Shown here piece after piece: positions 24,723-54,578 of a DNA stretch of 64,000 nucleotides. The DNA lies in assembly GCA_023838465.1 (NCBI GenBank), contig JAIVEQ010000018.1, forward strand, positions 1-64,000, read 5' to 3'. Position 1 is the stretch's first letter. Each line of letters starts with the position of its first letter. Source of the stretch: Candidatus Thiodiazotropha sp. (GTDB lineage: Bacteria > Pseudomonadota > Gammaproteobacteria > Chromatiales > Chromatiaceae). A program made the translations under genes and the position numbers. The notes under the pieces were generated by a model. It did no database searches. It had not been told where the DNA came from and worked only from the letters and a program-made list of their open reading frames with translations.

Positions 24723-24723
24723 C

Positions 24724-25376: not shown

Positions 25377-25394
25377 TAGCATTCAGCGTGCCAG
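25377..25394 (-). promoter_or_regulatory. Sigma-54 (-24/-12) promoter for the PTPS-led cofactor operon
   Basis: Minus-strand sequence CTGGCACGCTGAATGCTA has a perfect TGGCACG -24 element and an ATGC -12 element (consensus TTGC), with GG-N10-GC spacing. It points to the PTPS-like gene with a predicted transcript start near 25367 and a leader of about 130 bases. It lies 42 bases after the stop codon of the sigma-54 activator gene on the same strand. Six sites with the same spacing precede other C1 genes in this window. Confidence 0.82.
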
Positions 25395-25435
25395 GTAGGT
25401 ATTTGCCTTACCCTGAAGGAAATAGCCCCGCTGGA

Positions 25436-27388
25436 CTAACGGGGGGGATTGATCCCGTAGCGCTTCATTCGCCGATAGAGTGTGTTGCGGCTGAGGGTCA
25501 GTTTTTTTGCAACCCGGCTGACGTTCCAGTGCATATCCTCGAGTTCACTCAACAAGACATCACGTTCAGCAATCGCCAGGGAGTTGAAAGTGGAACCGGG
25601 GTTGTCAGCCGACTCCTCTTCATAGATGGCATTGCAAATATCATCGGGTAGATCATTGACCGTTACAATCCCGTTTTCACACATTGCTGTGGTGGTGCGA
25701 AGCACATTGAGAAGCTGCCTGATATTGCCAGGCCAGGTGAAGTTTTCCAGTATCCTCAATGCTTCCGGATCCCATTTCAATTCCACGGAGTTACCGGCTT
25801 CCTGTTGTCCGATCTTTTGAATCAGCTGGAGTTTATCCTTGCGATCACGCAGGGGGGGCATGGTCAGTGAGATGCCGTGTAATCGGTAATAGAGATCCTC
25901 GCGAAATTCCCCTTCCTCCACCATGCTCAGGATGTCATGGTGGGTGGCGCTGATCAGCTTGATGGAGACCTTGATCGGCGTTTCACCACCGAGCGGTATG
26001 ACTTCCCGCTCCTCCAGCACCATGAGTAGGCGTGCCTGCAGATGCAGTGGCATATCACCGATCTCATCCAGGAACAGGGTGCCACCGTCCGCCTGCAAGA
26101 TCTTACCGCGGTTTCCTTCCCTGCTTGCGCCGGTAAATGCTCCCGGCCGATAGCCGAAGAGTTCACTCTCAATCAGCGACTCGGGTAGCGATGCGCAGTT
26201 AACGGCTATGAAGGGTTTATCGCGGCGGGAACTGGCTTTATGCAGTGCCCGTGCAAACATATCCTTGCCGGTGCCCGTCTCACCGAACAGCATGTAGGGA
26301 ATATCCCGTTCGATTACCTTCAAAACGGTTTCCACATTTTTCTTCATGCGTGGTTCATCGAAATGGAGCGTTTCTAATGCCTCTGCGCGTCCATGATAGA
26401 TTTTCGTACTCTTTTTAATGCTGTTGAAAGCACCCATCGGTGCAGGACTAGGCGTGCAGTTTTCGGGTGGTTGCAGGGTGGCGAAGAAGCGTCTTCCCTG
26501 TTGCGTCTCCCGAATGGGAAAGGCATGCGTATGGGTTTGTTTGAGCAGAGTGGGGATGGAGGTCGTGAACAGTTGATTGATCAGATGGCCAACGATCTGC
26601 TGTGGTTTTTCGAGATTGAGCTGGAACATGGCACTGCGATTGACCGCTAGTATCTTTCCTTCCAGATTGAAAGCGATGGCACCCTCACCCAGGGTACTGA
26701 TGAATTCTGAACGGGCATGGAAGCGGAGGACGAAGGCATTCTTCATGGCGCAGAAGAAGACACGGTTTTCGATGACTTGTGCCGACATGTTCAATAGCAC
26801 CATGGTGTGCTGTTGAGCCATTTTCGATTCACTTGAGGCGTCGAGAACTGCCAGTGTCTCACCATGAGGGTCAAATATCGGGGCAGCGGCGCAGGTCAGG
26901 CTGGCATTCCGGGTAAAGTAATGGGAGCTCTTATGAATAACCAGTGGCTTTTTTTCAACCAGACAGGTACCCATACCATTGGTGCCCTGTGCCGCTTCGT
27001 TCCAGACAGCGCCTAATTGCATACCGGCATGGGCAGCCGCATCGGTGAAATGGGGGTCGCCAATGTAATTCAACAGAACCCCATCACGATCAGTCAACAT
27101 GATGGCGTGGCCCGAGCCTGCCAACTGCTGGTATAGATTGGTCATTTCCAGTCGGGCTATATCCAGTAACCGGCAATACTGATGAAGCCGTTCATTGAGA
27201 TCGGATTGTTCGATGATGACCGGATCTGGCGTCTGATCGGGATCGAGCCCAAGGTCATCCTTACAACGCCTCCATGAGCGAAGTGTCAGGTCATCGATTG
27301 TCGTGCTGACAGGTTGGTTCCCTTCCAAAGCCGTTCGCACGAATTCGGCGTGACCGGGATTCTCCTGGTGCAGGATCGTTTGCTCCAC
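25436..27388 (-). CDS. Sigma-54-dependent activator, AcoR-like (GAF-PAS-AAA-HTH)
   Basis: A 650-residue enhancer-binding protein. A GAF-like sensor domain occupies about residues 60-220 ([37 protein letters not shown]), a PAS-like region about 230-300, and an AAA+ domain about 340-560 with Walker A GETGTGKD near residue 366. The sigma-54-contact GAFTGA follows near residue 415, so it can activate sigma-54 RNA polymerase. A C-terminal Fis-type helix-turn-helix ([23 protein letters not shown]) ends it. Its gene sits upstream of the PTPS operon and divergent from folP. Family members respond to alcohol, ketone or acetoin-type compounds, so a C1 signal is plausible but unproven. Confidence 0.93.
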
Positions 27389-27480
27389 AATCGCTCTCCT
27401 CCGTGGTAAGGCTGTACTGCGTTAAACCTTTCAGCACAATCTCCACATTTATGTTTAGTAATCGAGGTATCATTTATTAT

Positions 27481-27519
27481 TATGACAACAAGTCTATGAC
27501 AAGATCTCGATTATGACAA
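27481..27519. promoter_or_regulatory. Three TATGACAA direct repeats between the activator and folP
   Basis: TATGACAA occurs at 27481, 27495 and 27512, at 14- and 17-base intervals, in the 171-base gap between the divergent activator gene and folP. The TGACA core also appears in the dyads upstream of the xoxF and PQQ-ABC promoters. The repeats could be operator sites for the activator itself. This is inference. Confidence 0.5.
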
Positions 27520-27559
27520 ATAATACACCCTGTCCCGTCGACCTAACTTATTGTCAACC

Positions 27560-28866: not shown

Positions 28867-31611
28867 TTACTCACCAGGCGCTACCCGGATGGCGCAGAAT
28901 TTGAATTCGGGTATCTTGGCGTCCGGGTCTAGGGCCTCGTTGGTGAGCAGATTGGCCGCTGCCTCTTGATAGCAAAAGGGAAGGAAGACCTGTCCAGGCT
29001 GCAATCCACTGTCGGCCCGGGCGAATGCAGTGACTTCGCCACGTCGTGATTGCAGTTGGATCGGATCGCCTGGCTGGACATTGATCCGGGTGAGCTCTCC
29101 CGGATGGAGACTGGCGACCGGTATCGGTTCGATGAGATCGAGTACTTCCGAACGGCGGGTCATGACGCCTGTGTGCCAGTGCTCCAGCTGACGGCCGGTA
29201 ATCAGTACCCAGGGGTAGGCTTCATCCGGTAACTCGTCTGCATTAGTGAAGGGGGCAGGCGTGAAGGTTGCCTTCCCGGATGAGGTCGGAAAGTGTTCGG
29301 TAAAAATCACCGGTTGTCCCGGATCATCCTCATCCTGGCAGGGATAGGTCACAGATCCAGCCTTTTCCAGCCGCTCCCAGGAGATACCGGCGATGCTCGG
29401 CATGGCCTGCCGCATTTCGGAAAATACCTCCCTCGGATGGTTGTAGTGCCAGTTCAGCCCCAGCCGGTTGGCCAATGCCTGAATGATCTCCAGATCCTGT
29501 CGTGCCTGACCGGGTGGATCCAGGGCCTGACGACCCAGCTGCACACGTCGGTCAGTATTGGTAAAGCTACCGTTCTTCTCGGCAAAGGCCGAGGCCGGCA
29601 GGATGACATCGGCATACCAGGCCGTCTCAGTCATGAAAATATCCTGTACCACCAGGTGATCGAGTCCGGCAAGTGCCTTACGCGCATGATTCAGGTTGGG
29701 ATCGGACATGGCAGGATTCTCACCCATGATATACATGCCTTTTATTGTGCCCTCGGTAATGGCATGCATGATCTCTACCACAGTAAGACCGGGATTCGGG
29801 TCAAGTGGCTGGTTCCATAAGGCTTCAAAGCGGGCTCTGACATCCGGGTCGTCGACCCGTTGATAGTCGGGAAAGACCATCGGAATCAAACCGACATCTG
29901 AGGCACCCTGTACATTGTTCTGTCCACGTAGGGGATGCAGACCGGTGCCTGGACGGCCGATCTGCCCTGTCATCAGGGCCAGAGAGATGAGGGCGCGGGC
30001 ATTGTCAGTGCCATGCACATGCTGAGAGACGCCCATGCCCCAGAAGATGATGGAGGCTTTTGAGGAGGCGTAGAGTCGCGCCACCTCGCGGATGGTGGCT
30101 GCATCGATACCACAGACAGATGCCATGGCTTCTGGGGTAAATGGCTGCAGGTGCGATTCCAGTGCTTGAAAACCATGGGTACGTTCAGCAACAAATTTTC
30201 TATCCACCAGATCCTGCTCGATCACAGCGTGCATGATGGCATTGAGCAGGGCTACATCGGTGTCAGGTTTGAAGTGGAGGAAGTGTGTGGCATGTCCGGC
30301 AATGGCGGTGCGACGGGGATCCATGACAATCAGTGTTTTGCCTGCCCTTACCTCGTTCTTTATGAAGGTGGCGGCTACCGGATGATTTTCGGTGGTGTTG
30401 GAACCGATGATCAGGATCAACTCCGCATCACTGACATCCACTACCGGATTGGAGACCGCACCGGAGCCGATCATCTCCAACAACGCGACCACGGAGGAGG
30501 CATGACAGAGACGGGTACAGTGATCCACATTGTTACTGCCAAAGCCGGTTCGAATCAGTTTCTGAAATAGATAGGCCTCTTCATTGGAGCACTTGGCAGA
30601 ACCAAAGCCGGCGAGTCCGGTGGGACCCAACTGATCATGCAGGTTGCGGAGTCCGGCAGCGGCAAAATCCAGCGCCTCTTCCCAGCTTGCTTCACGAAAA
30701 TCCATAAAAGGGTTTTCCCGGTCAAGATCAAGTCCAGCTCGTTTGGGTGCATCTTCCCGTCTTATCAGCGGTACAGTCAAGCGTTGGGGGTGGTGGACAT
30801 AGTCGAAACCATAACGCCCTTTGACACAGAGTCGGCTGTTGTTCGCCGGTCCATCACGGCCGGTAACATAACGTATCTTATTGTCACCAATATGATAGGT
30901 AAGCTGGCAGCCCACACCGCAGTAGGGGCAGACGGAATCAATCTCCTTTTCGATCGCTTGCTGACCCAGGCCTTTGGCAGGCATCAGCGCGCCAGTGGGA
31001 CAGGCCTGTACGCACTCGCCACAGGCGACGCAGCTACTCTCTCCAAGGGGGTCTTGAATGTCGAACACGATGGTAGACGCACTGCCGCGTCTGGCGTAAC
31101 CGATCACGTTGTTGACCTGTTCTTCACGGCAGGCCCGCAAGCAACGGGTACACTGAATACAGGCGTCCAGATTGACCGCGATGGCGGGGTGGGAGAGGTC
31201 AGTCGCCGGTTGTCTGCGGCCATGAAAGCGGGGTTTCCCAAGTTGCAGTTTCGTTGACCATTGGTCGAGTTCACTGGTCGGGCTATAGCGGGTTTCGGCG
31301 ATATCGGATTGAAGCAGTTCCAGTACCAGTTTTTGCGCCTGTCGTGGACGTGCGCCGCTGCTGTTGACCACCATTCCCTCGGTGGGTGTTCGACAGCAGG
31401 AGGCTGCCAGGCTCCGCTCACCCTCGATTTCAACCATACAGGCACGGCAGTTGCCATCGGCTCGCAGTCCCGACTTGTAGCAGAGATGAGGAATCTCCTT
31501 GCCGAAACGTTGTGCGGTCTGTAGCAGGGTCTCACCCGGGACGGCACTGACCGGCTCGCCGTCGATGATGAAATTGATTGCCTGGCTTGAGGGCAGAGGA
31601 TTACTCGCCAT
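28867..31611 (-). CDS. fdhA: NAD-linked formate dehydrogenase, alpha (Mo-bisMGD) subunit
   Basis: A 914-residue molybdopterin oxidoreductase that oxidises formate to CO2. The order is an N-terminal 2Fe-2S domain with CYKSGLRADGNCRACMVEIEG near residue 43, a bacterial 4Fe-4S ferredoxin region (ACIQCTRCLRACREEQ, SCVACGECVQACPTG) and the 4Fe-4S motif CPYCGVGCQLTYHIG near residue 238. The Mo-binding region follows, with HCTRLCHASSVV in which the Cys is the expected Mo ligand, and a C-terminal GRQLEHWHTGVMTRRSEVL. The arrangement matches FdsA/Fdh1A of methylotrophs. ATG at 31611 overlaps the fdhB stop by 11 bases. Formate from the Fhc complex would be its substrate. Confidence 0.94.
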   Translation of the reverse strand: MASNPLPSSQAINFIIDGEPVSAVPGETLLQTAQRFGKEIPHLCYKSGLRADGNCRACMVEIEGERSLAASCCRTPTEGMVVNSSGARPRQAQKLVLELLQSDIAETRYSPTSELDQWSTKLQLGKPRFHGRRQPATDLSHPAIAVNLDACIQCTRCLRACREEQVNNVIGYARRGSASTIVFDIQDPLGESSCVACGECVQACPTGALMPAKGLGQQAIEKEIDSVCPYCGVGCQLTYHIGDNKIRYVTGRDGPANNSRLCVKGRYGFDYVHHPQRLTVPLIRREDAPKRAGLDLDRENPFMDFREASWEEALDFAAAGLRNLHDQLGPTGLAGFGSAKCSNEEAYLFQKLIRTGFGSNNVDHCTRLCHASSVVALLEMIGSGAVSNPVVDVSDAELILIIGSNTTENHPVAATFIKNEVRAGKTLIVMDPRRTAIAGHATHFLHFKPDTDVALLNAIMHAVIEQDLVDRKFVAERTHGFQALESHLQPFTPEAMASVCGIDAATIREVARLYASSKASIIFWGMGVSQHVHGTDNARALISLALMTGQIGRPGTGLHPLRGQNNVQGASDVGLIPMVFPDYQRVDDPDVRARFEALWNQPLDPNPGLTVVEIMHAITEGTIKGMYIMGENPAMSDPNLNHARKALAGLDHLVVQDIFMTETAWYADVILPASAFAEKNGSFTNTDRRVQLGRQALDPPGQARQDLEIIQALANRLGLNWHYNHPREVFSEMRQAMPSIAGISWERLEKAGSVTYPCQDEDDPGQPVIFTEHFPTSSGKATFTPAPFTNADELPDEAYPWVLITGRQLEHWHTGVMTRRSEVLDLIEPIPVASLHPGELTRINVQPGDPIQLQSRRGEVTAFARADSGLQPGQVFLPFCYQEAAANLLTNEALDPDAKIPEFKFCAIRVAPGE

Positions 31612-33304
31612 GTTCCAACTCCTCAGGAAAATAGCGTAAAACGCTTAGCATTGGGTTGGGCGCCGCCTGTCCCAGACCACAGATAGAGGCATCGATCATG
31701 ACGTTGGAGAGCTCCTCCATCAGTGCTTTGTCCCACTGATTCTGCTCCATCAGTGCAACTGCCTTCTCGGTACCGACCCGACAGGGGGTGCATTGGCCAC
31801 AGGACTCATGGGCGAAGAAGCGCATCGCATTCAGTGCCGCTTCCCGGGCGCTGTCATGCTGCGAAAGGACGATAATGGCGGCTGAGCCGATAAAACAGCC
31901 ATGGGGTTGCAGGGTATCAAAATCGAGTGGAATATCGGCCAGCGAGGCGGGCAGGATGCCCCCGGAGGCTCCTCCCGGGAAGTAGCCATAGAGTTCATGT
32001 CCCTTCGCCATGCCATCACAATATTCATCTATCAGTTCGCGCAGGGTAATACCGGCCGGTGCCAGATGAACACCGGGTTTGTTAACCCGGCCACTGACCG
32101 AGAAAGTACGTAGACCCTGATGCCCGTGGCGCCCCTGACCAGCAAACCAGTCGGCACCTTTTTCCAGCAGCTCCCTGACCCAATAGAGGGTCTCCATGTT
32201 ATGTTCCAAGGTGGGATGGCCAAACAGTCCGACCTGGGCGACATAGGGTGGTCGCTGGCGGGGCATGCCACGCTTACCCTCGATCGATTCAATCATTGCG
32301 GACTCTTCGCCACAGATGTAAGCACCGGCACCCCGACGCAGATGGATGGGAGGCAGGGGGTAGGGCGGGTCAGCCTGCAGACGTGTCAGCTCTTTTCTCA
32401 GCAGGGTCCGGATAGCGGCGTATTCATCACGCAGATAGATATAGATCCCGGCAATATCGACCACCCGTGCGGCGATCAGCATCCCTTCGATAAAACGGTG
32501 TGGGTCCTGTTCCAGGAGATGACGGTCCTTGAAGGTCCCTGGCTCACCTTCGTCGATATTGACCGCCATCAGGCGAGGGCTCGGCTGCTCCCGCAGGATG
32601 CGCCATTTACGGCCGGCTGGGAAACCAGCGCCTCCCAGGCCTCTGAGATTGGCGTCCTCGAGAAGTTGGATGACCTGCTCCACTGACATGTGTTGCGGAT
32701 CATCGGACCCCTGGGTATTGATTCGACCAAGAAGATCATAACCGCCATCGGCACGATAGGCGGTGTAATCCCGGTAAGCGGGCATCTCAGGCTGTATACT
32801 GTTGCTGTTGACGAGCTGCTGTACTTTTTCGGCAGTGGCAGCGGCAACCTGATTCTTTCCCACCACCGCCACCGGTGCCTCCTGGCAGTAGCCGACACAG
32901 GGTACCCGTTGCACACGTACGCCATCCCCCAATGTGGTCTGCAGGTTATTGATCAGCGCTTCGGCACCGGCCAGCGAACAGGATATCGAATCACAGACCC
33001 TAACGGTCAGTGGCGGTGGGGCTGTTTCACCCTCTTTCACCAGATCGAAATGGTGATAGAAACTGGCTACCTCGTAGACCTCGGTGGAGGAGAGATTCAA
33101 CTCTTGCGCAAGGGCAACCAGATGATCGGCAGAGATATGTCCCTGACTGTCCTGGATGCGATGTAAATGTTCAATCAGTAAATCAGCACGGCGTGGTGCG
33201 TTTCCCAGCAGGTCTTTCACCTGGTTCAGTGCGGCTTGATTCACAGCGCGGCCTTTGGGGCGACCGCGCCGTCTTCTGTGTTCGGATTTGGTTTTTGTAG
33301 ACAA
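31601..33304 (-). CDS. fdhB: NAD-linked formate dehydrogenase, beta subunit (NuoE-NuoF fusion)
   Basis: A 567-residue protein joining a NuoE-like thioredoxin-fold 2Fe-2S domain (residues about 20-165; CDSISC and PCVGYCQEAP hold the cysteines) to a NuoF-like FMN and NADH domain. The latter has GLRGLGGAGFPAGRKW, GAYICGEESAMIESIEGKRG and the 4Fe-4S motif ESCGQCTPCRVGTEKA. It transfers electrons from the alpha subunit to NAD+. The fusion is the same as in Fdh1B of Methylorubrum (about 572 residues). A TTG at 33304 is the likely start because no ATG occurs nearby in frame. It is preceded by the sigma-54 promoter at 33379-33396. Confidence 0.94.
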   Translation of the reverse strand: MSTKTKSEHRRRRGRPKGRAVNQAALNQVKDLLGNAPRRADLLIEHLHRIQDSQGHISADHLVALAQELNLSSTEVYEVASFYHHFDLVKEGETAPPPLTVRVCDSISCSLAGAEALINNLQTTLGDGVRVQRVPCVGYCQEAPVAVVGKNQVAAATAEKVQQLVNSNSIQPEMPAYRDYTAYRADGGYDLLGRINTQGSDDPQHMSVEQVIQLLEDANLRGLGGAGFPAGRKWRILREQPSPRLMAVNIDEGEPGTFKDRHLLEQDPHRFIEGMLIAARVVDIAGIYIYLRDEYAAIRTLLRKELTRLQADPPYPLPPIHLRRGAGAYICGEESAMIESIEGKRGMPRQRPPYVAQVGLFGHPTLEHNMETLYWVRELLEKGADWFAGQGRHGHQGLRTFSVSGRVNKPGVHLAPAGITLRELIDEYCDGMAKGHELYGYFPGGASGGILPASLADIPLDFDTLQPHGCFIGSAAIIVLSQHDSAREAALNAMRFFAHESCGQCTPCRVGTEKAVALMEQNQWDKALMEELSNVMIDASICGLGQAAPNPMLSVLRYFPEELEHGE

Positions 33305-33378: not shown

Positions 33379-33396
33379 ACGCAACTTGTGTGCCAG
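33379..33396 (-). promoter_or_regulatory. Sigma-54 promoter for fdhBA
   Basis: Minus-strand CTGGCACACAAGTTGCGT contains TGGCAC-N5-TTGC with GG-N10-GC spacing, matching the -24/-12 consensus closely. The predicted transcript start is near 33369, giving a leader of about 65 bases before fdhB. The same 18 bases occur without a change upstream of xoxF at 49096-49113. The neighbouring divergent metallohydrolase gene has no such site. Confidence 0.85.
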
Positions 33397-35582: not shown

Positions 35583-35598
35583 GAACATTGGGTATTCC

Positions 35599-37215: not shown

Positions 37216-38208
37216 CTAATGCCCCCCGGCTATAAAAACGCCGAATGCGCGGGGGCTCTCTCCGGTTGGAATACGATTGATAATTTCCAATTTTTCCGTG
37301 TCCAGAACAACCAGCTCGTTAGTGAACCAATTGGCGATATAGACACGTCCGTCTGTAGGGTCGACGATGATACCTTCTGGAAATTCACCTACTTTTATCC
37401 GGTGGATCTCCCGTAACTTATTTGCATCGATGACTGAAACTGAGTTGTCATGCTGATTGGTGACGAACACCCGTTGGCTGTCAGGTGTCACTGCAATACC
37501 GTAGGGTGTGCTGCCAACCGGTATGGTGGAGATGACTTTAAGTTTCTCCAGATCAATGACACTCAGGTCATTGCTTGCCACATTAGCCACGTAGAGGCGT
37601 TTTCCATTACTGTCCATACGGATACCAAACGGACGCTTGCCCACTTCGATGCGTTTTAGCACCTGGTTCAGGTGGGTATCAACAATGGAAATAGTGTTAT
37701 TGTCACGCTCTGCCACATAGAGCCATTCGCCATCCATGTCCACTTCAAGCCCAGAGGGCGAATCACCGACTGGTATCTTTGTCAGTATCGATAGGTCTTC
37801 CGGGTCGAGGACATACACCAGATCCTCATACCAGTCGGCTACGTAGACACGGCTCCCATCAGGATTTACAGCAATTCCAAGTGGACCCTGTCCGACCTGG
37901 CTGTGGGTAATCGTTTTGAGTTTAACCCCGTCTAAAAGATAGACTTCACGACTTTCCGGATTGGTCACGTAGATACGCTTACCGTTTTTGGAGACGGCGA
38001 CCCCAGCAGGCTTTGAGCCGACCTGTAAGGTTGCAGTCAGGCGTGATTCCACCAGATCGATCACAGAGACCGAATCATCACCCTGATTGGTTATAAAGGC
38101 ATATTGTGCTGCAGAGCCTGTGGTACTTATCAGCAGTGCAATCAGGACCAGTAACAACGCCACTCGTCGGGTTGAATGGTTGAGTTGTATCTGAATCTCT
38201 TTTTGCAT
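37216..38208 (-). CDS. YVTN-type beta-propeller protein (first copy)
   Basis: A 330-residue exported protein (signal sequence LLLVLIALLISTTGSAAQ). Repeats of the YVTN family, each about 42 residues, fill the chain: AFITNQGDDSVSVIDL, IYVTNPESREVYLLD, VYVADWYEDLVYVLD, LYVAERDNNTISIVD and further copies, giving about seven propeller blades. Such proteins accompany PQQ-dependent catabolism, perhaps as binding or assembly factors in the periplasm. It follows the MxaD-like gene after 16 bases. A second propeller gene of this kind lies at 40898. Confidence 0.85.
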   Translation of the reverse strand: MQKEIQIQLNHSTRRVALLLVLIALLISTTGSAAQYAFITNQGDDSVSVIDLVESRLTATLQVGSKPAGVAVSKNGKRIYVTNPESREVYLLDGVKLKTITHSQVGQGPLGIAVNPDGSRVYVADWYEDLVYVLDPEDLSILTKIPVGDSPSGLEVDMDGEWLYVAERDNNTISIVDTHLNQVLKRIEVGKRPFGIRMDSNGKRLYVANVASNDLSVIDLEKLKVISTIPVGSTPYGIAVTPDSQRVFVTNQHDNSVSVIDANKLREIHRIKVGEFPEGIIVDPTDGRVYIANWFTNELVVLDTEKLEIINRIPTGESPRAFGVFIAGGH

Positions 38209-38224
38209 GGTCTGGCCGGTTATT

Positions 38225-38758
38225 TTAGGAGCCCTGTTCCAGCAGTTTTTTCAGATTCGACAGACCGCTCTTGTAGACGCCGGTTACCGCATCGACAGCT
38301 GCTTGATCGCTGAGTTCCGGTGGGGGTTCGTTGTTCGGGAAACCGCGATAGAAGGCACCCTTCCAAGTGACAACACTCCCGCCATCTTCAGCTGGGGCTA
38401 TGTTGAACCAGGAGGAGTAGTTGGTGACTGGAAGGACCTTTACGTCAACCTTCTCTATGCGGTAGAAAAAAGAGTGTTTCTCGCTGTCGTATTTTTCCAG
38501 GATTTCATAGATCTTACCGTCATTAGGCAGCATCAGTATTCGTTTGGCACCACTACTGTTGCCACCATCCCCCTCCGTTTTAATGACAGCTGGATGCCAG
38601 CTCATGTCGTGAAAATCCTTGACCACATCCCATACTGCTTGAGGAGAAGCAGAAATCTGTTCCTTGACGATGACCTTCTGACGGGTAGGGCCATGGGCCT
38701 CAACCATCCCTGTATAGAATGAAATGATGGAGAAAAGGAGTGCGACTGTTTTTTTCAC
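38225..38758 (-). CDS. MxaD-like SRPBCC-fold periplasmic protein
   Basis: A 177-residue protein starting with a signal peptide (VKKTVALLFSIISFYTGMVEAH). The mature part is an SRPBCC/polyketide-cyclase fold (VIVKEQISASPQAVWDVVKDFHDMSWHPAV, then YKSGLSNLKKLLE at the end), the same fold and length as MxaD of methylotrophs, thought to aid electron transfer between methanol dehydrogenase and cytochrome. GTG at 38758 is chosen because GGAGG lies 5 bases before it; an in-frame ATG far upstream at 38872 would add 38 residues. It leads the YVTN gene in an operon. Confidence 0.84.
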   Translation of the reverse strand: MKKTVALLFSIISFYTGMVEAHGPTRQKVIVKEQISASPQAVWDVVKDFHDMSWHPAVIKTEGDGGNSSGAKRILMLPNDGKIYEILEKYDSEKHSFFYRIEKVDVKVLPVTNYSSWFNIAPAEDGGSVVTWKGAFYRGFPNNEPPPELSDQAAVDAVTGVYKSGLSNLKKLLEQGS

Positions 38759-40846: not shown

Positions 40847-40897
40847 TTCAATACGTCGGGATTGATCTTAATCCCTGAAAAAACCAGGAGTGGCACT

Positions 40898-42633: not shown

Positions 42634-43433
42634 TGCCGCTTCAGTATCTTCGCTGTCTGATGGGCATCCTTGCCCGTGAGGCATTACGGTTTCTCCACCA
42701 GCGCGAGCGTTTCTTCGGTGCCCTGGTGCGCCCTCTGGTCTGGCTGTTCATATTTGCAGCAGGGTTTCGCTCGGTACTGGGTGTGTCAATCATCCCTCCC
42801 TATGAAACCTATATCCTCTACGAGGAGTATATCGTTCCTGGTCTGGCGGCGATGATACTGTTATTCAGCGGCATGCAGAGTTCACTCTCCATGGTCTATG
42901 ACCGGGAGATGGGCAGTATGCGCATGTTGATGGTCAGTCCGTTTCCCCGCTGGTATCTGCTGTTTTGCAAGTTGATCGCCGGCTCCCTGGTCTCGATCGC
43001 GCAGGTCTATCTGTTCCTGTTTATCGCCTGGTTTTGGGAGGTTGAGCCACCCATGGTCGGATACTTGTTGGTCTTTCCTGCCCTGCTGTTATCCGGTTTG
43101 ATGCTGGGCGCACTCGGTTTGCTGCTCTCCTCGGCGATCAAGCAGTTGGAAAACTTTGCCGGGGTAATGAACTTTGTGATCTTCCCGATGTTTTTTGCCT
43201 CGTCCGCCCTCTATCCTCTGTGGCGAATCAAGGATTCCAGTGCGCTGCTCTACGATATCTGCCGTTTCAATCCTTTTACCCATGCCGTGGAATTGATCAG
43301 ATTCTCACTGTATGGCGAGGTCAACTGGACGGCACTTTTCGCAGTCGTCGGCTGCTTGTTGCTGTTTATGGCAGGTGCCCTGTATGGCTATGACCCGGCG
43401 CGTGGTCTGATGACCCGCAAGCAGGGTGGATAA
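42630..43433 (+). CDS. ABC-2-type permease, PQQ-alcohol dehydrogenase system
   Basis: A 267-residue inner-membrane protein with about six hydrophobic helices, of the ABC-2 exporter type (YILYEEYIVPGLAAMILLFSGMQSSLSMVYDREMG is the family's cytoplasmic segment). It pairs with the ATPase gene overlapping its start, and the substrate-binding-like protein encoded upstream. Family members occur with PQQ-dependent alcohol dehydrogenases; export of a factor or import of an alcohol have both been discussed. ATG at 42630 or 42633 is possible. Confidence 0.9.
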   Translation: MMPLQYLRCLMGILAREALRFLHQRERFFGALVRPLVWLFIFAAGFRSVLGVSIIPPYETYILYEEYIVPGLAAMILLFSGMQSSLSMVYDREMGSMRMLMVSPFPRWYLLFCKLIAGSLVSIAQVYLFLFIAWFWEVEPPMVGYLLVFPALLLSGLMLGALGLLLSSAIKQLENFAGVMNFVIFPMFFASSALYPLWRIKDSSALLYDICRFNPFTHAVELIRFSLYGEVNWTALFAVVGCLLLFMAGALYGYDPARGLMTRKQGG

Positions 43434-46996: not shown

Positions 46997-47085
46997 GTAT
47001 CGCCTCTTCTAAGAGATGGGGGGCAGTGAACATCAGCGTGCTGTCACCCGCATCACTCATGCGGGTGACAGCGACAGATGGCAGA

Positions 47086-48888
47086 TTATTCAGCCAGTTC
47101 GAATACCGTCAGGGTTCCACCCAGTTGGGTGTAATCGCTGAGGGATGCGTAGGCACCTACGGCACCGAGGCCTGCAGTTGGGTCTGTCAGACCAGCTGCC
47201 ATACCGATACCGGCCCAGCCACCAAGTCCTGATAGCACCGCGATATACTGCTTGCCACCGTGCATATAGGTGTTGACGTTACCGATGATGCCAGAGGGTG
47301 TCTTGAACTTGTAAAGTTCTTTACCCGTCGCAGCGTCAACTGCCTTGAGATAGCCTTCCAATGTGCCATAGAAGACCACATCACCTGCTGTAGAGAGTGC
47401 GCCGCTCCAAACCGAAAATGGTTCAGGATTGGACCAGACGACCTTACCTTTGTCGGCATCCCATGCAATGAAGTTACCCAGGTGTGTGCCGCCCGGTGCC
47501 GGATACATGGAGAGGGTGGCGCCAACATAGGGTTGCCCCGCTGTATAGGAGACCTGGAAAGGTTCATAGTCCATGCATACGTGGTTGGTTGGCACGTAGA
47601 ACAGTCCGGATCGTGGCGAGTAGCTGGCTGGTTGCTGGTCCTTGGAACCCAATGCCGCCGGGCAGATGCCAGTCGAGTTGACATCTTCGCCATTCTGCTC
47701 AGTAGAGTATTTGGATACAACCTGTGGACGACCGGTCTTCATGTCGACATGAGTGGCCCAGTTGACTGTCGGGTCATATTTCTCTGCAACCAGCAGCTCA
47801 CCATTTGCTCGATCAAGGGTATAGCCAAAGCCATTACGATCGAAGTGGACCAGAGCCTTGCGCATCTTACCTTTGATCTTTTTGTCTACCAGGATCATTT
47901 CGTTGATGCCATCATAATCCCACTCGTCATGGGGTGTCATCTGATAGAGCCACTTAGCCATGCCAGTGTCGGCATCGCGTGCGAAGATAGTCATAGACCA
48001 ACGGTTGTCACCGGGACGCTGGATAGGGTTCCAGGTGCTGGGGTTGCCAGAGCCGTAATAGACCAGGTTCAGATCTGGATCGTAGGAGAACCAGCCCCAA
48101 GTGGTACCACCGCCGATCTTCCACTGATCACCCTTCCAGGTGGAGGTTCCTGAGTCCTTGCCGACGGGCGTTCCAAGATGTGTGGTCATTTTTGGATCCA
48201 GCAGGGTATCGGAGTCTGGTCCCATGGAGTAACCACGCCATGCCATGCTGCCATCTTTCGTGTTATACGCAGTCAAGTGTCCACGTACACCGAATTCACC
48301 ACCTGAAATACCGACATAGACCTTGTCTTTCACAACCATTGGTGCTGCAGTGGCGGTCGCCCCTTTCTTAGGATCGCCATTTTTCACGGACCAATGCACC
48401 TTACCGCTTTTGGCATCCAGGGCTACCAGCGTGGTATCAGCCTGGGAGAGGAAGATTTTGCCATCACCGTATGCCAGCCCACGGTTTACTGTGTCACAAC
48501 ACATGACCGGGATGACGCTCGTGTCTTGCTTGGGTTCATACTTCCAGATGATTTTCCCATTATCATTGAGATCCAATGCAAAAACCTTGTTCGGAAATGG
48601 GCTGTGGATGTACATCACACCATCCATGACCAGCGGCCCACCCTCATGACCACGCAATACACCGGTTGAGAATGTCCAGGCAACCTTCAGTTTTTTGACA
48701 TTCTTGGTATTGATCTGATCTAGCTCACTGAAACGGGTACTGGCATAGTCGCCATTCGGCATGACCCAGTTGTTTGCGTTCTGTTGCAATTTCTGTAACT
48801 CAGAGTTGGCCGTAGCTGCCCCTGCGCTTGCGAGCATGGCTGAGGCAGTGAAGCAGATCGCCATGACTTTGCGTTTCGCTTTTACCAT
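47086..48888 (-). CDS. xoxF: PQQ-dependent methanol dehydrogenase, lanthanide type
   Basis: A 600-residue periplasmic quinoprotein (signal ending near GAATANSEL) that oxidises methanol. The adjacent disulfide is C130-C131 (MCCDTVNRG). The PQQ and metal site includes E198 ([11 protein letters not shown]) and N282 (GSGNPSTWN), the catalytic D324 and the extra D326 in HDEWDYDG. The second Asp two residues on marks the lanthanide-using XoxF type against calcium-type MxaF. The length and W motifs fit XoxF5. ATG at 48888 has TGAGGAT before it, while the upstream ATG at 48903 is unlikely to be used. No mxaF or mxaI was seen. The operon continues into the cytochrome, xoxJ and rhodanese genes. Confidence 0.96.
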
Positions 48889-49095
48889 AGTTGAAATCCT
48901 CATTTTATTGTTTGGTGAGACTGACTTTTTGGTAGATCTCTTTCACTTAGAAGCCTAATCATTAAGCTCAGATTACAAGCAAGTGCTTCTCCAATCCGCA
49001 TCTACCTATAGCGATCCAAAATTTATTAGCTGCTGCTGTCTATTGACCTTGTCGCAAAAACTTACAGGCAGTCTCGATGAGCGACATTAGGTATG

Positions 49096-49113
49096 ACGCA
49101 ACTTGTGTGCCAG
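49096..49113 (-). promoter_or_regulatory. Sigma-54 promoter for the xoxF operon
   Basis: Minus-strand CTGGCACACAAGTTGCGT, identical over 18 bases to the promoter of fdhBA. TGGCAC-N5-TTGC with GG-N10-GC spacing fits the -24/-12 consensus. The predicted start is near 49086, giving a leader of about 200 bases before xoxF. The wider region 48889-49533 holds no other recognised gene. Confidence 0.85.
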
Positions 49114-49355: not shown

Positions 49356-49371
49356 TGTCACTGCGGTGACA
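49356..49371. promoter_or_regulatory. Perfect dyad TGTCAC-N4-GTGACA upstream of xoxF
   Basis: TGTCACTGCGGTGACA is a perfect inverted repeat, about 243 bases upstream of the xoxF sigma-54 promoter, within reach of an enhancer-bound activator. On the plus strand a T-run follows (ATATTTTTT), so it could instead be a terminator of an unannotated plus-strand transcript. The half-sites resemble those of the dyad at 39047-39064, but the spacing differs by two bases. Confidence 0.5.
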
Positions 49372-49533: not shown

Positions 49534-50346
49534 TTAACACCAAACCAGAATCTCCCCCTTTCCGTCACACCCCAGGTCACCGAGCCAACGTTGCACACGA
49601 CTACCTCGCTCCCACATATCGGAGAAGCCTGCCTGGTCTTGGAAACTCCGGGTGAGCAGTGTCAGAAAGTTGAGATTGTGTTTGCCGTTGTCGTTGAAGG
49701 TGGCCGGTAGGGAGACGGGCTCTTGGGATAACAGCAAGGTACCGCGGCGCATCGCCAGCCCGGTTTTTGCACCCGCCTCACCGAGCACAACAAGGGTTCC
49801 CGCAATCATACGGGATGCACAGTAATCTCCCGCATTTCCGCTTATCAGGATGGTGCCGCGGCGCATCTGGTCGCCGGCCCTGTCTCCGGTGTTACCTTTA
49901 ACTAAGATTTTCCCGCCACGCATACCCTGGCGCTCTCCAGTGATGGCTCCACCGAGGAGGTCGCCCGCATTGCCAGCGATAGTCAGGGTGCCGGCTGACA
50001 TGTTGCAACCGGCAGCGATACCGACATCACCTGATACAGACAGGGAGCCTCCCCCCATTGAGCGCCCAAGATAGGCACCTGCACACCCTTCGATATGTAT
50101 GCTGCCGTTGGTCATTCCGCTGCCAATCTCATCCAGGCGATCACTGTCTGACTGGATGACAATATCTTGTGGGTCATCACCGCTAAGGGTAAACAGATCC
50201 CCGCAAGCGACCTGTTGGTTTCCCTGCCAGAGAGGAAGTTGGACGATATCAGATAACTTCATATCAGCCAGTCGCTCAGGGGTGAAGGGACTCATGTCGA
50301 TGCGCTGATGGCTTGACTGTCGCAGTCGTAGTATCAACGCGCTCAT
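49534..50346 (-). CDS. fhcC: Formyltransferase/hydrolase complex subunit C
   Basis: A 270-residue FwdC-like protein. Repeating parallel beta-helix segments (GSGMTNGSIHIEG, SGDVGIAAGCNMSAGTLTIAG, GGAITGERQGMRGGKILVKG, DQMRRGTILISGNAGDYCASRMIAGTLVVLGEAG) are typical of the C subunit of formylmethanofuran dehydrogenase and glutamate-synthase-like C-domains. In methylotrophs it is part of the Fhc complex that converts formyl-H4MPT to formate via formyl-methylofuran. It is last in the fhcBADC operon, and its start overlaps fhcD by 4 bases. Confidence 0.93.
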   Translation of the reverse strand: MSALILRLRQSSHQRIDMSPFTPERLADMKLSDIVQLPLWQGNQQVACGDLFTLSGDDPQDIVIQSDSDRLDEIGSGMTNGSIHIEGCAGAYLGRSMGGGSLSVSGDVGIAAGCNMSAGTLTIAGNAGDLLGGAITGERQGMRGGKILVKGNTGDRAGDQMRRGTILISGNAGDYCASRMIAGTLVVLGEAGAKTGLAMRRGTLLLSQEPVSLPATFNDNGKHNLNFLTLLTRSFQDQAGFSDMWERGSRVQRWLGDLGCDGKGEILVWC

Positions 50347-51239
50347 GCCATCACCTCTCGCAAGTGGAATTTAAACTGGCCCAGCTTGCCACCATAATTG
50401 CCGGCTGATATGCGCCGGATACCTGCGGGTGCACCCAGTTCACAGACCGCCTGGATGCCGACACGGGTTGCCAGACGTACATCATCTTCACCGATGCCGT
50501 TGATGACGATCTCCATCACCGACATTATTGTTGGATCCAGCTTCGATTTGACCAAGCCTCTCAGAGTGGGGCAATAGGCTTCGTTGGTCGATGCCATCAG
50601 GGCCTTGTATTTCGACCCTACCTTGGATCCGGAACGCACAATGCCGCCCGGGAAAGGCATGATCACATTGGGCAGGTGCAACATCGCCTCGATCGCCTTC
50701 TCACAGGCAGTGAGGGCCTGCAACTGGGTTTCAGCCAGGACCAGGAAGTTACCGCCACCAACCGCGGGGACCCGCGCGGTTGTCTCCTCACACAGAAATT
50801 CGCCGTCCATCACCGGTACTCGCCAGTAACGGCTGCCCGCAATCTGTTTGGCTATTTGATAACCGTCACCGAAGAAGCGCAGATTTTTACCCAGCGGAAT
50901 TCGTTTCTCCCCTGACATACCGGAGAAGAGCGCTGTCGTGGGGCAGGTCAGCACACACTGTCCTACCCGGTTCTCCAGGTGCTTTGCCAGGGCTTTACCC
51001 GACATGCCGAACAACAGCACGCTGACACCGGGCCGACCATCGGGGGACGCTTCAGGTGGGATCTCAGACTCTATGCCCGCTTCTACACCGCAGCCGATCA
51101 CTGAGGTGGCGAATCCGGTCATGGTTTCACCGGCGATTCGTGCCCAGCGTGGGTTGATAGCTGTGATAATGATGCGGGTAGCGGCCATACCGAAGGCCTC
51201 GGCGAAGGTCTCCTCGATTTCGGTGCCGTTGATGATCAT
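50343..51239 (-). CDS. fhcD: Formylmethanofuran:H4MPT formyltransferase
   Basis: A 298-residue formyltransferase (Ftr) that moves the formyl group from H4MPT to methylofuran in the oxidative direction. The start is MIINGTEIEETFAEAFGMAATRIIITA, followed by ASPDGRPGVSVLLFG and the closing block GAPAGIRRISAGNYGGKLGQFKFHL, all typical of archaeal and bacterial Ftr. The length matches the usual 296-300. It is coupled to fhcA by a 1-base gap and to fhcC by an overlap. Confidence 0.95.
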   Translation of the reverse strand: MIINGTEIEETFAEAFGMAATRIIITAINPRWARIAGETMTGFATSVIGCGVEAGIESEIPPEASPDGRPGVSVLLFGMSGKALAKHLENRVGQCVLTCPTTALFSGMSGEKRIPLGKNLRFFGDGYQIAKQIAGSRYWRVPVMDGEFLCEETTARVPAVGGGNFLVLAETQLQALTACEKAIEAMLHLPNVIMPFPGGIVRSGSKVGSKYKALMASTNEAYCPTLRGLVKSKLDPTIMSVMEIVINGIGEDDVRLATRVGIQAVCELGAPAGIRRISAGNYGGKLGQFKFHLREVMA

Positions 51240-51240
51240 G

Positions 51241-52905
51241 TTAATTTCTTCCCCGGCAGGGGTGGATCGTTACAGCGCTGCCAATACCCGCTGCCATCTC
51301 GTCGTCTGAAATCCTGAAGTTCTGCAGTTTGATGCTGTGATACTGCTCGAACCAGTCACCCAATCGTTTCTCTATGCCAGGATCGTAGTCCGGTCGTACC
51401 ACCTGGGTGGTGCCATTGATCGGCCGGGTGATCCGGCCTTCCTCTACCACGACCTCGCCCTGCTTGAACACCAGCATTGGCTGTTGAAACATCCGTTCAG
51501 GGTTGTCAGCCTGGTGATAAACAGCAATGTCAGCTATTGCACCAGGAGCCAGGTGTCCCCGGTCCGTTAATCCCAATATGCGTGCAGGTGCCGCCCGGGT
51601 CATGATGGCAATTTCGTAGAGTGAATAGACTCTGTCGAGCGTGCTCAGGTGACTGCTGGCTGCAGCATCGGGATTGATCTGCGACAGCAGATCGTTACGG
51701 AAACTGCGGTCCATCAGCAGGCGGATCAGATGGGGATAGCTGGTAAACGGGGCGCCATTGGGGTGGTCGGTGGTGAGGAATACACGCCAGGGATCGTCAA
51801 TCATCAGAAAGAGTTCGAGGCCGATTGCCCATTGCAGCGCATTGACAAAGTTCTTGTCCCGATAGCGAAAGGGGACAACCCCACAGCCCGCATCGCATTC
51901 GATATCCATGCAGGTCCATTTGTTCGGGTGAGCGTGACCGTGGTTGGCGTACTGTCTCATGGTGTCGCCGGAGACAGTAACGGTCTGGCCGAACATAATC
52001 TGGCCCACATCGATGGAGATGTTTGGATGGCGGTTGACAGCCTCGGCGATCTCAGCTGCTGAAGAGGAGAATTTTCGGTCTCCTTCCGCCCCGTAGCTGT
52101 GAAACTGAACATGGGTCAGGTGAATCGGTAGTCCCTCCGCTGCATCCATGGTAGACAGGGTGGAGTGAAAGTTGCCGGGTACGCCCAGGTTGCTGGCGTG
52201 TACATGCAGTGGATGGGGTACCCCCAGATTGTTCAGGGCCAGGCTCAAGGTTCTTAAGATCTTCCGTGGGCTGATTCGATAGTGAGGGTGGAGATCGTCT
52301 ACATCCAGCTCTCTGGCATTGAATTTGAAAGCATTGATGCCACCGGGATTGACTACCTTGATCCCGATGCATTGTGTCGCGTGCAGTGTCCAGGCAACGT
52401 AGTCGTTGATGGTCTCCTGTTCCGCCCCCTCGGCGATCATCTCAAGCAGCAGGTCGTCGTTACCCAGCATGGCATAGCCGCCGGTATCGATCATGGGAGT
52501 GTCCGCCATTTCCATGTGGGCCTGGCGGGCGTTGACAGGCAGGATGGCGGGTTCGAAGCAGCTGGTATAGCCCATTTCCGCATAGCGGTATCCAGCGGCC
52601 AGGGTTGAGGGAGTGGCGTGGCCGCTCCCCGATCGGGTCAGGGTTGTGCTTCTCCTGACATGCTCACGGTGATCTTCCGGGAGCATGGTTCGGGCAATAT
52701 TGACCTTGCCGCCACCGATGTGGGTGTGCAGGTCTATCGCTCCCGCCATTACAATCTTTCCATCCAGTGCGTAGCTGCGATGTACGGGTTCGCTGGCAGG
52801 TGGTGTAGAGACTATGCGGCCATCACGAATGTAGATATCCCTGACTTTGCCCTCAATGGCATTGGCAGGATCATAGAGTGTTCCACCGGTGAGTTTAGTC
52901 AACAT
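51241..52905 (-). CDS. fhcA: Formyltransferase/hydrolase complex subunit A
   Basis: A 554-residue amidohydrolase-fold protein similar to FwdA. It is the hydrolase that splits formyl-methylofuran to formate. The metal motif GAIDLHTHIGGGKVN lies near residue 56, and the later HVHASNLGVPGNF and VFLTTDHPNGAPF supply further metal ligands. The C-terminal PGAIADIAVY fits the amidohydrolase family. ATG at 52905 follows fhcB by 12 bases. Together with fhcB, fhcD and fhcC it makes the fourth step of the pathway. Confidence 0.95.
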   Translation of the reverse strand: MLTKLTGGTLYDPANAIEGKVRDIYIRDGRIVSTPPASEPVHRSYALDGKIVMAGAIDLHTHIGGGKVNIARTMLPEDHREHVRRSTTLTRSGSGHATPSTLAAGYRYAEMGYTSCFEPAILPVNARQAHMEMADTPMIDTGGYAMLGNDDLLLEMIAEGAEQETINDYVAWTLHATQCIGIKVVNPGGINAFKFNARELDVDDLHPHYRISPRKILRTLSLALNNLGVPHPLHVHASNLGVPGNFHSTLSTMDAAEGLPIHLTHVQFHSYGAEGDRKFSSSAAEIAEAVNRHPNISIDVGQIMFGQTVTVSGDTMRQYANHGHAHPNKWTCMDIECDAGCGVVPFRYRDKNFVNALQWAIGLELFLMIDDPWRVFLTTDHPNGAPFTSYPHLIRLLMDRSFRNDLLSQINPDAAASSHLSTLDRVYSLYEIAIMTRAAPARILGLTDRGHLAPGAIADIAVYHQADNPERMFQQPMLVFKQGEVVVEEGRITRPINGTTQVVRPDYDPGIEKRLGDWFEQYHSIKLQNFRISDDEMAAGIGSAVTIHPCRGRN

Positions 52906-52917
52906 AGGGCTACGCTC

Positions 52918-54213
52918 TTACTCTCCGGTAGCTTGCAGAAGCTTGTTGTTCAACAACATCATGATTTGACTGACCGCAGGCAGATCAGACTCTCTGAGTC
53001 GTCCAAGTGGCATAGGACAGACCGCATCGCTGCGATACCAATGGCCGGGGTGGTCCACCCCAGGGACACCCACAGGAATGTAGACATCGGGATCATTTTC
53101 AAAAGTCATTCCGGGGTGACCCAATACGATAGTCGGACTATCCGTCACTGGAGGAACAACCTGGGGGGAGAGTGAGGAGATCCACATCAGGAGATCTGTC
53201 TCTTTCTGCGCAATCAATGTCTGATAACGGTTGATCAGTGGGTCGTGCTCCGGGTAGCTTCGCTGCAACCGGGTCCGTAACGGGTAGCCAAGTTGCCAGG
53301 TGCAGACTTGATTGCTGGTTACATCTGCCAGGGTTCCGGCGAGAGGAAGGGCGGCACTGCGAGTCGTTAGATTGAGATCCTTGATCAGATCCACCAGACA
53401 CTGGATGGTCAGTTCGGCATGGGGGAAATCGAGCTCTGTGGCACTCCAGGCGATGACGCTGTATTTTGCCGTCTTCAACTGGGTGGCCAGCTCCACCAGT
53501 TGATCGCCTGTTTTGTCACCGAATGCTTGCATATTTACCGGCCGACCGGAGACCAGGCCTCTTAGCACGCCGGCCGCATCCGACAACTGCCTGTGTTCCA
53601 CTGGAATCACAGTGCACGCCATTGCCTCGATATCGGTTGGTAGAGACCCATTGTCCCAAGGACCTAGCAGTATCAGTTTTCGCTCACTGGCTGATGAGAA
53701 GAGACTGTGTTCCGGGTTCAGGACACGCTCGATCAAGCGAGGGAAACGATCAAAACACTGGTTGCCTACCACGATCATCAGATCGGCTCGATTGCGCACC
53801 TCTGTAAAAGTTGTTGCGAACCACCCGTTGTCTTGCAACACACGGATATTCCGAAACAAGCCGTCCCCATTGCAATGATCCAGTATGGCACCACAGTGAT
53901 CGGCCACTTCCAGGGTCCCTCGCATACCATTGACATCCGTAACCAATCCCGCAAATAGAGGGGCATGGGCTTTTCTCAGAAGTTCAGCACTCTGTGCAAT
54001 GGCATCATCCAGTGATGTCCGGCTCCCATCGATCATGGGGTTGTGGTCGTGAGGAGTCAATGCGGTATCGAAGAAAGAGCGGGCAAGTGTGCATCCTTTT
54101 TCCAGCGATACCAGTTGTCCATCGCTCACCTCCAGCTGTAGATCGTCACAACTCAATCCGCAACCAGGGCAAGTCACTGCATTTGTAATATTACCGATCT
54201 TGTTGTGCCACAT
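52918..54213 (-). CDS. fhcB: Formyltransferase/hydrolase complex subunit B
   Basis: A 431-residue protein similar to the FwdB subunit of formylmethanofuran dehydrogenase. The N-terminal CPGCGLSCDDLQLEV keeps a cysteine motif, but the bacterial FhcB is known not to carry a working tungsten/molybdenum formate site, so it is thought to be structural. ATG at 54213 is chosen because it begins just before that motif; a TTG at 54276 would add 21 residues. It is first in the fhcBADC operon, which differs from the fhcCDAB order of Methylorubrum. Confidence 0.9.
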   Translation of the reverse strand: MWHNKIGNITNAVTCPGCGLSCDDLQLEVSDGQLVSLEKGCTLARSFFDTALTPHDHNPMIDGSRTSLDDAIAQSAELLRKAHAPLFAGLVTDVNGMRGTLEVADHCGAILDHCNGDGLFRNIRVLQDNGWFATTFTEVRNRADLMIVVGNQCFDRFPRLIERVLNPEHSLFSSASERKLILLGPWDNGSLPTDIEAMACTVIPVEHRQLSDAAGVLRGLVSGRPVNMQAFGDKTGDQLVELATQLKTAKYSVIAWSATELDFPHAELTIQCLVDLIKDLNLTTRSAALPLAGTLADVTSNQVCTWQLGYPLRTRLQRSYPEHDPLINRYQTLIAQKETDLLMWISSLSPQVVPPVTDSPTIVLGHPGMTFENDPDVYIPVGVPGVDHPGHWYRSDAVCPMPLGRLRESDLPAVSQIMMLLNNKLLQATGE

Positions 54214-54350
54214 GACTCCGATAGCGGTCCTGACAGTGGGAAAGTGAAATACGTGCTTGAAGTGACTCAATTCCAAAACTACTGAAGTAACCCTACAGCA
54301 GCCCCAGAAAAAGGAGCTGCTGAACAGTTACCGTTAATTCATATGAACAA

Positions 54351-54367
54351 GGCAGAAAACGTGCCAG
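54351..54367 (-). promoter_or_regulatory. Sigma-54 promoter for fhcBADC
   Basis: Minus-strand CTGGCACGTTTTCTGCC has a perfect TGGCACG -24 element and a CTGC -12 element (consensus TTGC), with GG-N10-GC spacing. The predicted start is near 54340 and the leader to fhcB is about 130 bases. It is divergent from the mptG promoter 195 bases away, so one activator bound between could serve both. Confidence 0.82.
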
Positions 54368-54560
54368 TTCATATCGACCGGGTCACTTTGTGATGATTTG
54401 AGTGATGATCATAAATGACTGTGTCCTACTGGGGCAGTGCGAGTGACACTTTGGTTCAGACAAGGGGCATTCACCAGGATTTAATGAAAGTATTGATTTT
54501 TTTGCGGTGATTACGGGCTATAGCGGTCAACTGAGGTTTCTGGGATTAATCGAAGGGTGG

Positions 54561-54578
54561 TTGGTATAGGGCATGCTA
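54561..54578 (+). promoter_or_regulatory. Sigma-54 promoter for the mptG-mtdB-mch-fae operon
   Basis: TTGGTATAGGGCATGCTA has TGGTAT (-24) and ATGC (-12) with GG-N10-GC spacing, close to the promoter of the PQQ ABC genes. The predicted start is near 54588, about 37 bases before mptG. The spacing is exact, and the -24 and -12 elements have one or two departures from consensus. Confidence 0.75.

Follow-up and report, generated by a model that had tools for sequence, protein, structure and literature searches.

Conserved sigma-54 promoter-like sites and a linked activator point to a regulon for methanol oxidation and tetrahydromethanopterin cofactor synthesis in Candidatus Thiodiazotropha

Introduction

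A stretch of 64,000 nucleotides of Candidatus Thiodiazotropha sp. (GenBank assembly GCA_023838465.1, contig JAIVEQ010000018.1; hereafter the window) raises the question of whether its genes for one-carbon (C1) oxidation, based on XoxF and tetrahydromethanopterin (H4MPT), are under shared sigma-54 control. An initial annotation had placed six sigma-54 promoters, recognizable by their -24 and -12 elements, in front of nearly all of these units and had proposed that an activator encoded among them, bearing the GAFTGA motif, drives them as a regulon. Comparative tests supported both halves of this proposal. Based on sequence comparison, we consider it highly probable that dissimilatory methanol oxidation and H4MPT cofactor synthesis are turned on by an orphan sigma-54 activator of the GAF type. 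The window belongs to a genome of 4.54 Mb in 148 contigs (G000:C18 in our numbering), and the source bacterium is probably a clam symbiont.

Results

Sigma-54 sites in the window

The consensus of sigma-54 promoters is YTGGCACGrNNNTTGCW. We scored candidate sites with weights of our own built on this consensus and compared the best score of each upstream region to the best scores of 2000 dinucleotide shuffles of the same region. The six annotated sites were all present with the exact GG-N10-GC spacing and TGGCA...TTGC-like elements, and each is oriented toward the gene named for it. The set was incomplete, as one more site of the same kind precedes the genes for an SRPBCC/MxaD-like protein and a beta-propeller protein and faces the promoter of the PQQ-ABC (pyrroloquinoline quinone, ABC transporter) operon in a divergent arrangement (Table 1). 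The sites of fdhBA and xoxF share an identical 18-mer. Counted from the end of the -12 element, the listed open reading frame (ORF) starts after 48-194 bases at the six annotated sites (for which leaders of about 35-200 bases had been given), after 83 bases at the added MxaD-like site and after 41 bases at the corrected mptG site described below. Shuffle tests gave P values from 0/2000 to 0.015 for every unit except PQQ-ABC, whose site is not significant by itself (P = 0.063) but is conserved in relatives (20/22 at a score of at least 21; see below). The same genome encodes RpoN (PF04552, 231.6 bits; G000:C8:29980-30456).

Sites thus precede seven units, and the statement that they precede nearly all C1 units was slightly too wide. 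No GG-N10-GC match in the direction of the gene was found ahead of MBL-soxYZ, the activator gene, folP, u36046, xoxJ, ptps2 or the gene at 44205, and only weak matches were found ahead of xoxG, soxYZ and hisA. Several of these window genes probably lie within operons. Another sigma-54-like site, TTGGCAAGGTTGTTGCG, lies at 16654-16670 (+) (shuffle P = 0.0025) and precedes a set of genes for HMGL, 3-hydroxyacyl-CoA dehydrogenase and enoyl-CoA hydratase (16819-19926).

Conservation of the sites in relatives

Conservation among relatives had been named beforehand as a check on the sites. We considered a site as conserved when the upstream region reached a score of at least 22, and the window's own locus is included in all counts. 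Such a site was found upstream of xoxF in 19/19 loci, upstream of fhcB in 16/17 and upstream of mptG in 26/30 (33 mptG matches in the order set, 30 of them with loci). The upstream region of fhcB was measured from residue 22, since an over-long ORF start gave an artefactual 6/17. What we call the MxaD side is the region upstream of PQQ-ABC read on its opposite strand; it carried a site in 18/22 loci, counted irrespective of the gene that follows, and in one relative (G008) the gene recognized there is a homologue of u36046 and not of the SRPBCC gene. Conservation was lower for PQQ-ABC (14/22 loci, or 20/22 at a score of at least 21), for fdhB (16/25) and for the cofactor operon (14/29, or 20/29 at a score of at least 21; here the 450 bp that follow the activator gene were scored). 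The fdhB and cofactor-operon sites are less regular than those of xoxF, fhcB and mptG. Upstream of xoxF, the 17-mer persists while the flanking DNA of several species seems unrelated, as judged by eye and not from a scored alignment.

The mptG promoter had to be moved. A site is indeed present at the annotated position, 54561-54577, and an overlapping one lies 7 bp downstream, at 54568-54584. The CAGGCATGNAAATTGCA-type sites of relatives align with the latter, which is therefore the conserved mptG site. The two candidates, TTGGTATAGGGCATGCT and AGGGCATGCTAATTGCA respectively, score about equally, and TTGGTATAGGGCATGCT was found elsewhere only in the two nearest relatives; it is probably not the site in use. 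G008 carries an extra site, CTGGGATGTCTATTGCA (L249, 11789-11805), within some 5 kb of DNA that separate fhcC from xoxF there and are absent from the window.

It could be argued that the sites are chance matches chosen by eye. The P value of PQQ-ABC, the many weaker matches within coding DNA and the raw genome counts all point in this direction: a strict pattern search, along the lines of the enrichment check proposed with the initial annotation, returned 31 matches with the correct spacing against 46 with a wrong spacing (GG-N11-GC). These raw counts show no enrichment, and what differs is the share of loci outside ORFs of at least 150 aa, with 15/30 for the correct and 5/30 for the wrong spacing (30 loci read for each). 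Against chance stand the spacing and strand controls. The opposite strand yielded sites in 0/19 xoxF, 0/13 PTPS and 2/25 fdhB loci, and most of its matches at mptG (8/30), fhcB (8/17) and PQQ-ABC (16/22) are those of the divergent partners. Within the genes themselves, sites were seen in 3/30 mptG loci and in none of the other genes, and wrong spacing gave 0 to 2 per gene. Together with the orientation of the sites and their association with the activator (below), and above all with the conservation at xoxF, fhcB and mptG, which speaks strongly against it, these controls make a chance origin extremely unlikely.

Association of the sites with the activator

The activator is a bacterial enhancer-binding protein of the orphan type. 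Its GAFTGA motif, which the initial annotation had reported, lies at residue 416; a Walker A motif (GETGTGKD) was found at 369, and the C-terminal Fis-type helix-turn-helix corresponds to PF02954 (residues 604-644). No receiver domain was found (no Response_reg match, E up to 1e-4), and the protein has a GAF domain instead. The best NCBIfam match is the DhaR model NF008485, with a score of 306.2 bits, which is below the curated cut-off of 551 bits. A structure model (pLDDT 79, pTM 0.48) matched the AAA+ domains of sigma-54 activators and was uninformative on the ligand. A gene of the cofactor operon lies within about 1.5 kb of the activator in 25/30 loci; the exceptions are L043, a short contig with folP only, and four loci of the genus g11. 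The window's genome contains an activator paralogue of 43% identity (L248, G000:C13:12001-32000), whose neighbors are a sigma-54 response regulator, a histidine kinase and a second PQQ-dehydrogenase/SoxYZ/MBL cluster; a site, TTGGCCCGCTTTTTGCT, precedes the PQQ-dehydrogenase gene there.

We defined activator orthologues with a cut-off of our own (E of 1e-240 or better and identity of at least 57%). Among the 195 genomes of the order, 32 have the activator, 32 have mptG and 28 have both, with four exceptions each way; in the window's genus (22 genomes), 12 have both and 10 have neither. All 26 mptG loci of the order with the activator carry the site, relative to 0/4 without it. The site-less loci (L161-L164) come from G023, G125, G158 and G107, precisely the four genomes that lack an orthologue, and three congeners with the activator (G054, G061 and G150) carry mptG sites.

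The same relation was observed in the class set of 369 genomes, where mptG was found in 48. Loci were obtained for 30 of these, two of which had been counted before; the other 28 were scanned, 18 genomes being left out, and the score threshold of 22 had been adopted earlier. Sites were present in 11/11 loci with the activator and 1/17 without it (the exception is G325; Fisher test, 5.6e-7, uncorrected for ancestry). In 6/28 loci a gene on the same strand lies close upstream of mptG, which therefore may not be the first gene of its unit there; without these six loci the counts were 10/10 and 1/12. Five genomes with activator matches of 44-48% (G219, G364, G467, G476 and G495) were not counted as activator-bearing, and none has an mptG match; G549 has the activator and no mptG match. 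Over order and class, the mptG site is present in 37/37 activator-bearing loci and in 1/21 activator-less loci.

These counts bear on another explanation, namely that the sigma-54 promoters are genuine and driven by a different activator, for example the contig 13 paralogue or the response regulator next to it, the window's activator serving its neighbors only. In its favor, the genome encodes at least two more sigma-54 activators in the vicinity of the second PQQ-dehydrogenase cluster, and no exact palindrome was seen at fdhB and PTPS (see below). Against it, the mptG site follows the window's own activator, and G107, which has a match of only 42% identity, has no site. We regard control by a different activator as improbable.

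Candidate enhancer palindromes

Upstream of the sites we identified TGTCA half-sites arranged as palindromes (Table 1), which are candidate enhancers for the activator. They were found from alignment and from the spectrum of half-sites; an enumeration of exact dyads with no prior idea gave nothing useful, and a 36-base matrix built on four rows of the alignment had no further match in the window. Of the 22 PQQ-ABC loci, 17 were inspected, and every one of these contained TGTCA-N4-TGACA; the exact N6 dyad occurred in 5/19 xoxF loci, and in G008 a similar palindrome lies about 500 bp upstream of the xoxF sigma-54 site. Upstream of mptG, TGTCAC-N17-GTGACA (up to two mismatches) was found in 23/37 activator-bearing and 0/21 activator-less loci, and at three mismatches in 29/37 and 4/21. 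No other spacing between 10 and 24 exceeded 7, and shuffles average 0.6 (maximum 3). Measured between the 5' ends, this palindrome precedes the sigma-54 site by 100-104 bp in 11/23 loci; the distance in the window's genus is mostly 148-262 bp. The motif thus leans toward activator-bearing loci, as the promoter does, and the palindrome is a candidate enhancer.

TGTCA-N4-TGACA alone was rejected as a specific marker. It occurs at 13 places of the genome, 12 of them outside the window, and those 12 have no sigma-54 site scoring at least 22 within 600 bp in the DNA examined; the motif by itself is therefore unspecific. A perfect hairpin, TGTCACCCGCATCACTCATGCGGGTGACA (47042-47070), between xoxF and xoxG was also set aside as an enhancer, given its hairpin-like appearance, and perhaps lowers read-through into xoxG.

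Occurrence in other lineages

In Nevskia (L102) and Dyella (L062), activators 44-45% identical are accompanied by strong sites ahead of xoxF; among the matches listed in our search of named genomes, the best were 45% identical. Two betaproteobacteria have the activator beside the C1 cluster. Of these, Azoarcus sp. KH32C has an activator upstream of its cofactor operon, with sites at the activator (P = 0.001), xoxF (P = 0.004), mptG (P = 0.007) and fhcB (P = 0.032) and no supported site at fdh (P = 0.55) or YncE (P = 0.23). Plasmid pBPHY01 of Paraburkholderia phymatum (L334, L337 and L339) carries two separate C1 clusters, each with its own activator and with sites of scores 22-23 ahead of fhcB and mptG; the xoxF site is weaker (21.5). 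TGTCA dyads were not seen in the Nevskia, Dyella, Azoarcus and P. phymatum loci at the spacings inspected.

Published expression data

Parts of PMC12172469 compare median transcripts per million for Ca. T. boucheti and Ca. T. endolucinida, respectively, from upwelling to non-upwelling. The values rise from 104 to 1801 and 142 to 2337 for mxaD, from 300 to 3216 and 276 to 3724 for mptG (named MJ1427 there), and from 345 to 2818 and 257 to 1901 for mtd; mxaD and mptG thus increase by about 11- to 17-fold, and the serine-pathway genes are unchanged. We infer that this mxaD is the window's SRPBCC gene. In the portion of PMC5979394 consulted, Bphy_6505 (formylmethanofuran dehydrogenase subunit A, fhcA) has a log2 change of -3.5 in nodules of a P. 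phymatum rpoN mutant and is the sole H4MPT-pathway gene noticed in a 93-gene table of selected categories. This gene may lie in either of the two pBPHY01 clusters, both of which have a site ahead of fhcB. As far as these excerpts go, published expression agrees with the proposed regulon.

The same sources bear on a further explanation, in which some sites overlap or compete with RpoD or extracytoplasmic function (ECF) promoters that mainly express the pathway, sigma-54 only tuning it. Within the same parts of PMC12172469, methanol dehydrogenase ranks with the most abundant transcripts whatever the season, and the rpoE gene of an ECF sigma factor rises together with the methanol genes; in Methylosinus sporium, a section of PMC12403871 reports that the RpoD motif predominates before methane-pathway genes. 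The 11- to 17-fold increase of mxaD and mptG and the drop of fhcA in the rpoN mutant point the other way. We judge this explanation very improbable.

Gene content of the window

Annotation with Pfam and NCBIfam identified the cofactor operon, the activator, fdhBA, the PQQ-ABC operon, xoxF/G/J, fhcBADC and mptG-mtdB-mch-fae. The product of the SRPBCC gene matches PF10604, and we label it MxaD-like by analogy. Ca. Thiodiazotropha clam symbionts are described in part of PMC11237559 as having fdhAB, xoxF and a soxYZ fusion together, as in the window. Farther from these units, a luciferase-like gene was found at 7547-8644. At 11181-13583 (+) lies a gene for a Radical-SAM protein with a CofH C-terminal domain, presumably FbiC-like given its length of 800 aa, which suggests deazaflavin synthesis.

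Table 1. Coordinates of sites, candidate enhancers and transcription units in the window
Feature	Position	Strand	Unit or location	Remark
Sigma-54 site CTGGCACGCTGAATGCT	25378-25394	-	H4MPT cofactor operon	0/2000 shuffles
Sigma-54 site CTGGCACACAAGTTGCG	33380-33396	-	fdhBA	P 0.004
Sigma-54 site CAGGCATGGATATTGCG	38841-38857	-	SRPBCC/MxaD-like and beta-propeller genes	P 0.015; added here
Sigma-54 site GTGGTATAAAAATTGCC	39148-39164	+	PQQ-ABC operon	P 0.063
Sigma-54 site CTGGCACACAAGTTGCG	49097-49113	-	xoxF	P 0.0065
Sigma-54 site CTGGCACGTTTTCTGCC	54351-54367	-	fhcBADC	P 0.003
Sigma-54 site AGGGCATGCTAATTGCA	54568-54584	+	mptG...fae operon	P 0.0065 (mptG); conserved one of two overlapping candidates
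Alternative site TTGGTATAGGGCATGCT	54561-54577	+	mptG...fae operon	initial annotation; otherwise only in two nearest relatives
Candidate enhancer TGTCAGTATTGACA	39049-39062		between divergent MxaD-like and PQQ-ABC promoters	TGTCA-N4-TGACA
Candidate enhancer TGTCACTGCGGTGACA	49356-49371		243 bp upstream of xoxF -24 element	N6 dyad
Candidate enhancer TGTGTCCTACTGGGGCAGTGCGAGTGACA	54420-54448		between divergent fhcB and mptG promoters	conserved block in most aligned relatives
Orphan sigma-54 activator	25436-27388	-		GAF, AAA+ with GAFTGA, Fis-type helix-turn-helix (Pfam/NCBIfam)
H4MPT cofactor operon	21498-25236			PTPS, flavoprotein, DUF6513, DUF447, 4-HFC-P synthase
fdhBA	28867-33304
SRPBCC/MxaD-like and beta-propeller genes	37216-38758
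PQQ-ABC operon	39219-43433
xoxF	47086-48903
fhcBADC	49534-54276
mptG...fae operon	54625-61059

Discussion

We propose that sigma-54 polymerase waits at the -24/-12 promoters of the seven units, i.e., the H4MPT cofactor operon, fdhBA, the MxaD-like unit, the PQQ-ABC operon, xoxF, fhcBADC and mptG...fae, where transcription would start. The activator would bind paired TGTCA half-sites about 50-250 bp upstream, common to both units where these are divergent. Its GAF region, rather than phosphorylation, would convey a C1 signal, which may be methanol, formaldehyde or a derivative, and the GAFTGA-bearing AAA+ ring would use ATP to open the promoter.

Several results weigh against this scheme. Besides the raw genome counts, 9/29 regions after the activator score below 21, and six activator-bearing genomes (G032, G046, G062, G096, G127 and G162) lack a site ahead of fdhB. 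The spacing of the palindromes is unequal between promoters (N4, N6 and N17), and no exact palindrome was found ahead of fdhB or PTPS. The N17 spacing and its mismatch limit were chosen after inspecting the order set, and the motif is present in 20/26 activator-bearing loci of the order and in only 3/11 of the class. The Fisher values ignore shared ancestry. As regards expression, fdhA and xoxG change far less than mxaD in the parts of PMC12172469 cited above, where the high methanol dehydrogenase transcripts of both seasons and the seasonal increase of rpoE also count here, and the data of PMC5979394, in the portion used, were obtained on root nodules and may reflect an indirect effect.

More broadly, we lean toward the view that one ligand-sensing sigma-54 activator is the dedicated master regulator of dissimilatory C1 oxidation. 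Among gamma- and betaproteobacteria it would have spread along with the H4MPT/XoxF genes, bringing its own promoter and enhancer code, so that the pathway would move as a self-regulated cassette. The mechanism is standard, and the regulon appears undescribed in the open-access literature that we searched. In agreement with the initial annotation, no sigma-54 control of an H4MPT/XoxF pathway was found among the results listed there; subscription papers mostly fall outside that literature, so this is not proof of absence. The search yielded sigma-54 control of the soluble methane monooxygenase (sMMO) and, by the title of a cited paper only, of one quinoprotein alcohol dehydrogenase, and no whole-pathway regulator of the H4MPT formaldehyde route was seen. 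The activator gene, the promoter map and the candidate enhancer open the question of regulation to testing in cultured species, among them Paraburkholderia phymatum. If true, the regulon would provide a mechanism for the reported seasonal switch of clam symbionts to methanol, as well as a C1-responsive control part for synthetic methylotrophy.

Comparison with known systems

GAF activators of the AcoR/DhaR/EatR type have the same domain order as the window's activator; DhaR provides its best NCBIfam model, and it shares 44% identity with a protein named EatR that is encoded on a Pseudomonas plasmid. These relatives serve genes for glycerol, acetoin or ethanolamine, whereas the context in the window is that of H4MPT and XoxF. 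The MxcQE, MxbDM and MxaB systems likewise regulate methanol dehydrogenase genes, by two-component control and not through sigma-54. In Azospirillum brasilense, sigma-54 is linked to a PQQ alcohol dehydrogenase as it is here, but with a LuxR-type co-regulator and a single dehydrogenase, according to the title of reference 34 in PMC12826043. A further parallel is MmoR of methanotrophs; no mmo genes turned up among the annotated proteins of the window. In the relevant part of PMC5874634, a sigma-54 activator is likewise encoded beside C1-oxidation genes, is of the GAF type in Methylocella and Methyloferula, and acts with a -24/-12 promoter ahead of mmoX that is given as YTGGCACGrNNNTTGCW, the same string as the consensus used here. 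By the descriptions, not an alignment, MmoR controls one monooxygenase operon, whereas the activator of the window would control several units for methanol, formaldehyde and formate together with the cofactor genes.

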